From Chloranthus sessilifolius (lineage: Eukaryota; Streptophyta; Magnoliopsida; Chloranthales; Chloranthaceae), in contig CM037596.1 of NCBI GenBank assembly GCA_021018995.1, positions 9,189,501 through 9,253,500 of the forward strand: a DNA stretch of 64,000 nucleotides. The letters are read 5' to 3'. Below the pieces are notes generated by a model. That model saw nothing but the letters and a program-made list of their open reading frames with translations. It was not told where the DNA came from and did not search any database. Position numbers and translations under genes: made by a program. Every line of letters begins with the position of its first letter. Positions within the stretch are counted from its first letter, which is position 1. Below are positions 16,301 to 61,560 of the stretch, in pieces.

Positions 16301-19300
16301 GTGGGCTTCACACCCTTGACTTCACACCAAACCCTTCTCGGGAAGAAGATTCACTCTTCGTAGAGGCTCATCCTAAGCACACAAGCAAAAGCTCTTTTCA
16401 TTAATCATCAACTAATTACATTGTTTAACTTAAGAACTTTATATAGGAGTCCTTTCAAACGAAAATAAAATCCTAAAACAAATACCAAAAGGACAAGTAT
16501 ACCCCTAAAAATTAAGTTCAAAATTAAAATTACCAAAATAAAAAAATTGCGCGATTTCGATCAATTGAAAGTGAAGTTCGATCGATCGAAATTGAAATTC
16601 GATCAACTCGATCGATCGAAAACACATATGTCAAAATTCGCCGTAGAAATTCGATCGATCGAAATTGAAACTCGATCGATCGATCGAGTATATAATTCGA
16701 TCAATCGAATTATATACTCCAGAACATATATGTTTTTCCTCTCGCTGCCGTTAGATCGATCGAATTGAAACTTCGATCAATCAAAATTTTTGATCGATCG
16801 AAATTTCAATTCGATCGATCGAATTTGTTGGTTCTTTCAAGTTTTCATCTTTCGCCTCTTTCGCCTATTTCTGATGTCGTTCCGCTTCTCCTGCCGTCGG
16901 TACACACGAAACGGTTTATATCCAATGTCTACGATGTCGGCGTCCCCGTCAGTCTCAGGTTCAATCCCAGCTTACCTATCCAAAAAAAAAGAAAAAGAAA
17001 AGGCTGATAACTGATTTTGATTTTGTCTTAGTACCCGTGTCAACTAGTGTTCTCAACAGGGAAAATTTATGGAAGATGGGATTTCCTTGTTACCCAAACG
17101 CACTAGAGATTATGATCTGCAGATAGGGCCGAATACCCCGTCATGAAAAAAAGATAAGTACTACTAGCAAACCAAATAAAAACAGATTTACGGTTTATCT
17201 TAGTAGCTGTGGCCACTAGAATCCAACATGTATGTTCGACATGTATTTGTTAATGGATTTTCCATGTTACATCACTTGAAAGTGGGCAATGCTATTGTTC
17301 ACCCGTCTATCTCCTTTTGTGGCTGGAAAATCTAATAAAACTTAAATGGAAATCTATAAACTCGTGGATTTTGCCAAAACTAGTATTCCAAGACTAAATG
17401 AAGTATGTCACAAGTGACTATGTTAATGCGGCATTCCTTGCATGTATGGACATAAGTGTAAGTCATATTTTGAAATGAACTGCCAGACTAGGGTGTGGGG
17501 GATATAGGTAGTTCTCTTTCGGTGATCATAATGACAAAGTCAGAGTTAGGGAATAAGTTTGCAACGAAAAAATTTGGAAAAAATCTGGAAAAATCAACTA
17601 AGTTGGAAAAAATCGGGAGAAAATTTTCAGGTGTGAAAAAAATCGTGTGTTAATTATGATTTTTTGTGATTTATTAAAAAAATTGTAACGTTTCGAGTAA
17701 GTCATGATTTGTTCACATTTTATTCTTTTGATGAATAAATCACGATTAAAACACTTTTTTTTCAAATTCTCATGGCTGATAAGGGTTTACCTTCAAGTTC
17801 TACGATTATTGTCACTATGTGGTCATAAGGCCAAAAGGGTTTGGGTTCACCTTTGTTCTTGATAGGTAAGCTGGGAATTAACCTGCAACCTCAAGGTTGC
17901 GCCATCATGCACATTCCATTGAGCTACAGGCCCTTTCCCAGTTCGGATTCACCGTCAAATTCTTCAGCCTTAGTGATTGTTATAATAATGGTTACTGGTT
18001 GTTATAACAAATTTTGGAAGTGTCACTAATTGCAATGCCTGTGGAAAGAAACAGAAAGAGCAATGGGCGCATAGTGAAAATATAAAAATGTTATCTCTAG
18101 TTGCGAGGAGTTGGTACGGAAACTGGTGTGTGTATTGGTACTGTACGTTGAGGTGAAAAAAGTTTTGGGTATGTTTTTACAGATACGTTTTTGGTACGAC
18201 ATTGGAATGCTATAGAAATGAAATCAATGCGTTATAGGTACGAAATAGATACGATATTGGTACAATATAGGTACGAGATGGATTTGTCATAGAAACGTTA
18301 ATAGTGAGAAGAGACAATAGCGTTGTGTATACTTTCACTTGGGATACACCACAAGATAATTAACTTTATAGTATTATATCTATTGGGATTTTTGTGTACC
18401 ACCAACTTCATTAGATTTTACTATAGATCTGACATGCACAGATTTCATTGTGCCTAAAAATCCGTAAACATTAAATTTTGACATAATCTAATGGATCTAC
18501 AAAATAAATTATGTAGAAAGGAGATATTCATTTCAAAATAAAGAGATATAAGTACTGATTAAAAGGAAAACTGGTTTCGATTATAATAGAAACGAGTTTC
18601 TATATAAATTGAATCAAGTTTCAACAAAGATAGAAACGTGTTCCTATTACTCATCGAAACACGTTTCGGAAATGTTTCGTGCTTGTCCCCGGTACTGGTA
18701 CGTATGGAGAATGGTACAATAGGGTAAAACAGGTTTCTATGTAACTATGCTTTAAACAACCAAATTGGGTGCAGGAATATATTATAGGCACACTTATGCC
18801 CCTAGGAACAATAGTGTCTACAGAACCTTGATAGGGCACAGTATAGGGGTGCAGATTCAGTTAACCGAACCGATCTGATTTCGGTCTGTTCGATTCAGTT
18901 TGTTTTTTTTGTATAATTTTTTAATTTTATTTTTCAAAGAATTTTTATTTTTTCGGTATTAGGGTCGGTTTTCTCACCCTACCTGGCCAGTTTTCAGCTT
19001 CCAGGTACCGAGCCGGTTCGGTCTGGTTCGGGAGGCCCAGCCCAGTTTTGGTTTTAATGTAAACCCCTAGCACAGTATCAAGGCACCCAGTGAAAATATA
19101 CAAATGTTATATTTTAACAACCAAATTAAGCACAGGGATATGCTATATGCAAATGTTTGCCCCTAGGAACAGTAGTGAGTACAGAACCTTGGCAGCACAC
19201 AGTATAAAGTATTTTACTACAATGTCACCCAAATTGGGGCAACTATTTTAGCATGAAATCTTCTTGCAACATGAGGGCATTATTGTTATTAAACCATGCG

Positions 19301-60205: not shown

Positions 60206-61560
60206 TGTGAAAATTAAGTTGTACTCGCAAGTGCATGAATCGTGATGTAGTCAGTGGGTGCAGAGTACGAGATCGTTCCCACGAGGATCAGTTAGAAAAT
60301 TTAGAAAAGAGAAATAGTGACTACTAATCTAACACTTTGAAAGCTTTTGATGAATGGGATAAATACTAATGAAATTAGAGATTTAAATAAATAATGAAAG
60401 ATAAGGATTGGGATACTAAATCTTCTCATCACAGGTTTATCATTTATGTTATATAAATTTGTGATGAAGATAGAAGATTTATAAAAGATGTCTGGGATCT
60501 GAACACCTACGGATTCTATAATACAGATCCGAGATCAAGGAGATGTGCGATTAACATCCCGTGAGTGTATGATTAACACTCATACCTCATAAAAGTACTT
60601 AGAATCAGATCTCAGGGTAAAGTCTACACTACAGATCTAAGATCAAGGAGATGTGTGATTAATATCCCGTGAGTGTATGATTAACACTCACACCTCAAAA
60701 AGTGGTAGAGTTTATCCTGAGCCAGAAGAGATTAGGATAACATCTCCATTGCAAATCTGAGGTTACTAGGCATGAATAGCTCCCGTATATCAGAAGCCGA
60801 GGAAATATTATCCATAGAAAGATAGAATCAGAGTCCACTATAAAATAATATCTTCATCACAGATTTATATTATAATAAATGAATACCTCGGATGGAAGTC
60901 ATTAGATCCCTCTCCTTAAACGAGATTAGCCACTCATAATAAAAGTAAATGACATAATTGAAAAGTACATCAACTTTAACATTTAAAATACCGTAAAAAG
61001 TGCTTTAACAAATTCCACAAATAGCTTTAATCTAAGTTCCGTATGACTCCTCATTTGAATGCAGATAAAAATAAATTTATTCTAAAATCTAACACATGAA
61101 AATAAAAAGTGCTCCAACAAACTTAAAGCGGAAGAACAGAAAATGGAAAAATGTAAAACGGAAGATCCCCCTGCGAATCCTCAGATTTTTCTTTTAAATA
61201 GCATCCAGATCCGTAACTAAAATTCAAATTCAAATTTAAATTCGAACTTGGTTGATTGATCGACTGTTTGGTCGATCGATTGACCAAGATAAATTTGTAA
61301 TTTTCAAATTAAAATTCTTCTGGATCATGTCGATCAATCGACCAAAAAGGGTCGATCGATCGACCTAGTCAAATGGTCAATCTCCTCTATTTTTGCTTCA
61401 CATGTCCAGTTCCTTTCAGCTTTTTGCACCATTTTACGCTTCTTAATATGTGTAATGGCCACTTTATTCTGAAACTTAGAAAATGTGCTAAATCATGTTA
61501 GATAGCTTTCATTGAATGGAAAAGTGTAGATTTTTAGGGGTGAAATATCATCATATTTCA
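60206..61560 (-). mobile_element. LTR-like insertion in the copia element
   Basis: It starts TGTGAAAATTAAGTTG on the plus strand and ends near ATATTTCA. On the minus strand a TATA-like GCTATTTAAAAG (61192-61202) follows a palindrome array (61251-61378). A unit with GATCAAGGAGATGTG, GTGAGTGTATGATTAACACT is repeated in tandem at about 60525-60597 and 60640-60710. Target duplications are not clear. Confidence 0.5.
61251..61378. repeat. Palindrome array, word GGTCGATCGACC
   Basis: Four to five copies such as GGTCGATCGATTGACC, GTCGATCAATCGACC and GGTCGATCGATCGACC, ending about 50 bp upstream of the minus-strand TATA-like box. Confidence 0.8.

Follow-up and report, generated by a model that had tools for sequence, protein, structure and literature searches.

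What are the short CpG-containing palindromes for that stand in arrays along a 64-kb stretch (the window; contig C13, 9189501-9253500) of the 2.17-Gb genome of Chloranthus sessilifolius? An earlier note on this DNA described six dispersed arrays of such words, most of them in U3-like positions of long terminal repeats (LTRs), with one word per element family. An own palindromic CpG word per element family, a position at promoters and one common geometry were borne out, but not the six independent LTR arrays: three arrays, all of the word TCGATTAATCGA, belong to a single LTR retrotransposon, element D, and the middle one (41.0 kb) is internal. Between pol and the 3' LTR, and thus separate from the transposition enzymes, element D carries an extra gene (hereafter aORF) that is related to PF20167 and is likely to encode the binder of the arrays. 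It appears rather probable that the arrays are private platforms for such an element-encoded, VANC-like protein.

The words were located by direct reading of the sequence where the earlier note had placed them. Exact 12-bp palindromes with CpG numbered 61 in the whole window, against a mean of 3.3 in 20 dinucleotide shuffles (standard deviation 2.0, maximum 7). When palindromes with CpG were counted array by array against 200 shuffles each, the 10- and 12-bp counts lay above all shuffles in the three arrays of element D (34.0, 41.0 and 44.4 kb) and in array A (16.5 kb).

Three arrays in one retrotransposon

Element D is complete, with an LTR pair that is 93% identical and a body of 33382-46279 without the target-site repeats. 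Its features are as follows.

33377..46284, plus: complete LTR element of family D, with 5-bp target-site repeats TTTTG at 33377-33381 and 46280-46284
33382..35862, plus: 5' LTR, TGTAATAGCC...GGCTGTCACA
33968..34418, plus: TCGATTAATCGA array in the 5' LTR, 587-1037 bp from the LTR start
35863-35877, plus: primer-binding site GTTGGTATCAAAGCC, directly after the 5' LTR
36339..37253, plus: gag (Retrotrans_gag, 2.9e-16), with zinc knuckle
37407..40683, plus: pol pieces in several frames (broken), namely protease, reverse transcriptase, RNase H and an integrase that ends in a Tf2-1-like SH3 module
41016..41742, plus: internal TCGATTAATCGA array in the interval from pol to the extra gene, outside the LTRs
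41752..41758, plus: TATA box TATATAT, 10 bp 3' of the last word
41988..43121, plus: extra gene (aORF), a PF20167 relative, interrupted here, with the start codon set by comparison with copy L013
43796..46279, plus: 3' LTR, preceded by the purine tract GGTGGGGAGGA
44393..44794, plus: TCGATTAATCGA array in the 3' LTR, read from the sequence and by the shuffle test

As a candidate Ty3 chromovirus (Tekay-like), a group that also has an LTR and primer-binding-site signature, the element shows the Ty3 domain order and the SH3_Tf2-1 end of integrase. No chromodomain match was obtained in the stretches that were scanned. U3-like positions, given by the earlier note for most of the arrays, hold for the LTR arrays of D but not for the 41.0-kb array. 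This internal array and its TATA box form a promoter of the aORF, whose start codon lies 230 bp past the box. The same array-plus-TATA promoter recurs in copies L013, L030 and L031, the box being TATATATT in L013 and L030 and TATATATATA in L031. A further copy of D (L029, 1-1401, minus strand) has the LTR and primer-binding site joined straight to the aORF leader, with gag-pol absent, and is thus an aORF-only element. Locus L023 holds a chromovirus-like element with a reverse transcriptase 72% identical to that of D; past its pol, at ~3.9-4.7 kb as the element reads, inverted sites centred on GTAACTAATAGTTGC occur repeatedly. No aORF was found at these sites, other repeat sequence comes next, and they are possibly a further word family.

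Neighbouring words stand about two helical turns apart, a spacing common to the families, where A, B and F denote families of other window arrays (listed below) and P, E and N families met elsewhere in the genome. Gaps of 19-23 bp to the next word were counted in 103 of 142 cases in D (peak 21), 27 of 37 in F (peak 21), 44 of 96 in P (peak 20-22, with 14 more at 41), 14 of 26 in E (21-22), 6 of 14 in N (22), 23 of 44 in B (23) and 4 of 9 in A (21). Such spacing would also suit arrays whose effect lies in the structure of DNA or RNA, or which serve as methylation targets, with no dedicated binder: by nucleosome positioning, as a source of double-stranded RNA and small interfering RNA (siRNA), or by RNA dimer contacts. 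Tandem repeats can be siRNA sources and targets of RNA-directed DNA methylation, according to the available part of one paper (PMC10398659). This explanation is nevertheless quite improbable, since the spacing is constant while the words differ completely between families, and since between D copies the words are kept while the spacers drift.

In six copy pairs of the D internal promoter, differences amounted to 0.5-2.9% at word positions outside CpG, 2.9-14.6% in spacers and 1.1-21.3% in flanks. Word positions were the slowest-changing class in 6/6 pairs; a position counted as part of a word if one sequence or the other had no more than two mismatches there, a choice that makes words seem to change more slowly. 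In the LTR pair of the window element, the words were not specially protected (changes of 7/124 in words, 20/204 in spacers and 48/1,902 outside). Constancy in the internal promoters but not in the decayed LTR pair fits selection on the words during amplification and none afterwards. It also tells against a functionless spread of the arrays by slippage and unequal exchange in successful families. Tandem duplication is seen inside arrays and the elements are very numerous, as such a spread would have it, but palindromy, similar spacing and a place before the TATA box recur in different families, making this origin very improbable.

The suggestion that the words are kept unmethylated drew only a mixed sign from CpG retention. 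In the six internal-promoter pairs, 69-86% of CpG sites were kept in words versus 41-84% outside, the words being higher in each pair and barely so in one. The LTR pair of the window (26/33 in words versus 54/64 outside) contradicts this trend and the way in which words were chosen favours kept sites, so that retention is not decisive as proof of unmethylated words.

Extra genes and their words across the genome

Genome-wide, the words are far more frequent than the same words read backwards, which served as the control: TCGATTAATCGA has 241,617 sites (control 55), TTGATCGATCAA 65,226 (317), TCGATCGATCGA 42,168 (84), CTCGCTCGAGCGAG 11,123 (1) and ACGGACGTCCGT 9,483 (14). The commonest four 12-bp palindromes with at least three different letters in 20 random 10-kb stretches were TCGATTAATCGA, TTGATCGATCAA, TCAATCGATTGA and CGATACGTATCG, in a skewed sample in which L013 alone supplied 25 of 26 TCGATTAATCGA sites, and a single locus each supplied almost all those of TTGATCGATCAA and TCAATCGATTGA. 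Among the matches listed for contig C1, F arrays are single; D arrays can be grouped LTR-internal-LTR (e.g. 54737-63801).

The aORF of D matches PF20167 (Transposase_32) at 2.7e-9. Relative to the Pfam gathering cut-off of 45 bits, clade P is over (67.1) and clade D under (35.3-37.6). A genome search with the D aORF yielded at least 118 scored matches among 48,405 first-look candidates, many of them in open frames of ~500-580 aa, and relatives were also present in the random sample (L013, L012, L025, L019 and L015). In two further searches, the best 150 of 39,626 candidates were scored for clade B and the best 150 of 13,855 for the Pfam model; 20 loci from each list were fetched.

Each clade was found to have its word. 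Clade B carries CTCGC-N4-GCGAG sites, mostly right before TATATAAGG-like boxes, and the same word makes up window array B; when the loci were scanned for the pattern CTCGCNNGCGAG, no site turned up, the B word having four central bases and not two. The word of clade P is ACGGACGTCCGT, and in two loci, L052 (without array) and L054 (with array), the aORF is preceded by a reverse transcriptase of Ty1/copia type (RVT_2). The word of clade E, GTCGATTAATCGAC, occurs in elements with a pol end that we take to be Athila-like, and that of clade S is CCTCGCGAGG. The own-clade word was present at least twice upstream of the aORF in 41 of 49 loci (B 19/21, P 13/14, D 4/5, E 3/3, S 2/5, L012 0/1), as counted at up to one mismatch with a fixed list of nine words drawn up after the loci had been seen. 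A word-blind score of at least four sites was reached by 26 of the 49 regions upstream of aORFs, which are related copies, versus 17 of 240 random ones. At L012 (6499-6695), four ATCGTAAATTACGAT-type inverted repeats with an odd centre lie upstream of a divergent aORF.

Sharing of the word between LTR and gene promoter was looked at in D and B. The D word is in both places in the window element and in L013. In clade B, L025 has one set of sites in front of the aORF and a second one 0.6 kb inside the apparent 3' LTR, the same position as in D, and exact words on contig C1 at 17926402 and 17929377 flank an aORF match (17926703-17927287).

In a protein tree quickly built from 46 aORFs, all five clades that have at least two rows each make up one side of a branch. 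Three word changes suffice for 39 rows of this tree, which is the fewest possible for four words; the 7 of 46 rows with fewer than two word hits were left out of this count. The D loci L029, L030 and L031 have no protein row in this tree, and the letters P, E and S were assigned after a joint view of protein and word, the tree check coming afterwards. In clades B and P the word stays the same even where protein identity has fallen to 52-59%; D-P identity is 21%. The core word common to D and E could be the older word on the tree, which the long P and E branches make unsure.

Could host proteins read the words instead? Host transcription factors on the arrays would make them ordinary enhancers, acquired for U3 and for the extra-gene promoters, while the extra gene does something else. 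Several observations lean this way and weigh against an element-encoded binder: the half-sites TCGAT, TTGAT and TCAAT are recurrent in families D, E, A, F and N; D and E have the core word in common despite very different aORFs; F and N arrays were met in 10-kb stretches in which no aORF was seen; and the lack of a known aORF for arrays A, C, F, G and N keeps this explanation alive. On the other hand, host factors give no reason for words to track the aORF clade, and the arrays of B, P and S, although their words are quite different, are laid out alike in front of one gene family. A third point is structural. VANC21 (9lnj_A) was the first structural match of the aORF model in two VIA-align rankings, and in the predicted models the aORF domain has the VANC DNA-binding fold. 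Together, these points make binding by host factors rather unlikely.

At the sequence level, VANC21 was not among the matches up to E 10 when profiles were compared with solved structures, and none of 36 aORFs matched the DUF1985 domain with an E value of 1 or less. The D model had no match under E 0.001 in a viral structure library, nor the P model in Foldseek. A C-terminal coiled coil is likely from the models. In one P-clade aORF (L073, 41-1201, minus strand), a long helix is predicted at the end (317-375, low confidence), as if for dimer formation. Palindromic words, a spacing of about two turns and the likely coiled coil point to dimers, and the idea that symmetric sites suit a dimeric DNA-binding protein fits.

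These retrotransposons have in common with VANC systems an accessory gene, a VANC-like domain and family-specific promoter arrays. Each array would be the private binding platform of one retrotransposon family. The PF20167-type gene of that family, lying between pol and the 3' LTR under its own array-plus-TATA promoter, would encode a protein in which a DNA-binding domain of VANC21 type is combined with a coiled coil at the C terminus. The protein may dimerize, with one half on each palindrome half and neighbouring dimers about two helical turns apart. Bound at the LTR U3 and at its own promoter, it would keep or reopen both promoters against host silencing, as VANC does for VANDAL elements, rather than acting as an ordinary activator, and other families would be spared because their words differ. 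This anti-silencing outcome is held with less confidence than the element-encoded binder itself.

The 3' extra genes of Athila and SIRE elements are called envelope-like. A broader and more tentative proposal, which falls just short of an even balance of belief and doubt, is that Ty3 chromovirus-like, Athila-like and Ty1/copia elements of one genome use VANC-fold proteins as private protein-palindrome codes, each family relieving only its own copies from silencing; the so-called envelope-like or Transposase_32 genes would then be self-recognition and anti-silencing factors.

Other arrays and genes of the window

Outside element D, the arrays are as follows.

16553..16823, minus: array of TCGATCGATCGA (family A), with TATATAAA 108 bp past the array on the minus strand
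23383..23467, minus: array of CTCGC-N4-GCGAG (the family B word), with TATATATA 89 bp past the array on the minus strand
31449..31556, no strand: array C, with the inverted repeat AGTCG-N4-CGACT in five 22-bp tandem units, and thus no strict palindrome
49464..49577, no strand: array of TTATCGGCCGATAA with a 21-bp period, read from the sequence and by the shuffle test
57155..57778, minus: array of TTGATCGATCAA (family F), with adjoining sequence common to L018
61251..61378, no strand: short array of GGTCGATCGACC-type sites (G), read from the sequence and by the shuffle test

The arrays listed by the earlier note were all found, but the TTATCGGCCGATAA array and the PF20167 gene behind the arrays had been overlooked. 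CpG palindromes in each array, as then claimed, hold by shuffles for A, D and F, in part for B and G, and not for C. In array F (57 kb), 8- and 10-bp palindromes lay above all 200 shuffles, the 12-bp count being reached by 3/200. In B (23.4 kb), solely 12-bp palindromes did so (10-bp reached by 8/200, 8-bp by 49/200), and in G (61 kb) 8-bp palindromes and near-palindromes (10-bp reached by 18/200, 12-bp by 8/200). In array C (31.4 kb), exact palindromes with CpG are absent at 8, 10 and 12 bp, which rules out strict palindromy, and the near-palindrome count of this array was reached by 12/200 shuffles.

A TATAWAW box stands on the proper side within 110 bp of three arrays: it is 108 bp from A and 89 bp from B, both on the minus strand, and 10 bp from the internal array of D, on the plus strand. 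As a general rule, a TATA box close after the array fails: the TATA-like sites of the D 5' LTR lie 0.7 and 1.2 kb past the array, no TATAWAW box was found within 400 bp of array F, and the TATA-like sites of C sit inside a TA microsatellite. No aORF was found beside the TTGATCGATCAA array or the sequence it shares with L018.

Further arrays were observed elsewhere. Those of CCTNTCGANAGG lie in L009 (6447-6808 and 9828-9981) and L023 (1410-1888), the L009 array being followed by an AT-rich box and a 201-aa open reading frame (ORF) with no Pfam match. Arrays of TCAATCGATTGA (L027, 7-143, 547-688 and 1621-1782) and CGATACGTATCG (L011, 6791-6880; L018, 811-981; L028, 8649-8752) have no identified owner gene. 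The window also contains a 283-aa ORF with an AP2 DNA-binding domain (52339-53187, minus), probably a host gene, an ORF with DUF659 (8141-8668, plus) and a reverse transcriptase fragment (24-677, minus). DUF659 occurs in hAT-like transposons.

Comparison with known systems

CACTA elements have subterminal motif arrays bound by TnpA, likewise an element-encoded protein on its own repeated short motif, but one that serves transposition at DNA transposon termini.

The functions of plant LTR-retrotransposon extra genes are called unknown or unclear in the available parts of three papers (PMC11728184; PMC7264820; PMC11963269). From the same sources, sunflower has a PF20167-like 3' aORF in Athila and a 5' aORF in Tekay (PMC11728184), Grande gene23 is told to have its own promoter (PMC7264820), and Retand TRP28 is predicted to bind DNA, family-specific tandem repeats being noted (PMC11963269). 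The likeness to the genes described here comprises the place of the gene after pol and ahead of the 3' LTR (in Athila, Grande and Retand), the PF20167 similarity (Athila), a predicted nuclear location, an own promoter (Grande), predicted DNA binding (TRP28) and family-specific tandem repeats (Retand). In the available text, these published aORFs are linked neither to the VANC structure nor to palindrome arrays that stand in the LTR and in the promoter of the aORF. The group behind the sunflower aORF work later named VANC as a possible model for the behaviour of LTR elements (PMC12844716), the VANC21 structure was mentioned as unpublished in 2021 (PMC8756742), and the term VANC is absent from the available part of a paper on rice Retrosat2 ORF0 (PMC3485330). 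Among the papers listed for the word strings, all look unrelated by title. No report joining aORF genes, palindrome arrays and the VANC structure was found in a literature whose coverage excluded most subscription papers and all bioRxiv preprints. Within this literature, the PF20167 similarity of the Athila aORF and VANC as a suggested model were already known.

The earlier note knew of no described system in which unrelated LTR families each have a palindrome array of their own. The VANDAL families of Arabidopsis, however, have family-specific motif arrays bound by their own VANC proteins (PMC5735166, as far as available), though they are DNA transposons and the VANC21 motif is not palindromic. 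VANDAL elements have a Mu-like transposase and no reverse transcriptase, whereas element D has gag, protease, reverse transcriptase, RNase H and integrase, and the elements described here are LTR retrotransposons of several lineages. The VANC21 motif, in the accounts available, consists of same-orientation YAGTATTAY repeats, unlike the CpG palindromes spaced ~20-23 bp apart found here. The aORFs also differ from VANC in having no DUF1985 sequence match and in the stability of their words within clades B and P, and the present system is known from sequence and predicted models. According to the available parts of two papers (PMC5735166; PMC10398659), VANC proteins recognize short motifs that form arrays in the VANDAL elements encoding them, the motif differing between related families, and they cause methylation to be lost. 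The Arabidopsis system and the present one are alike in an element-encoded accessory protein, own non-coding motif arrays, a motif that differs between related families, and the shape of the domain (9lnj_A). If the likeness extends to function, many natural protein-word pairs are at hand for working out how the VANC fold changes its DNA specificity, and a way of evading silencing by sequence recognition, so far seen in one group of DNA transposons of Arabidopsis, would be shared by retrotransposons of very high abundance.
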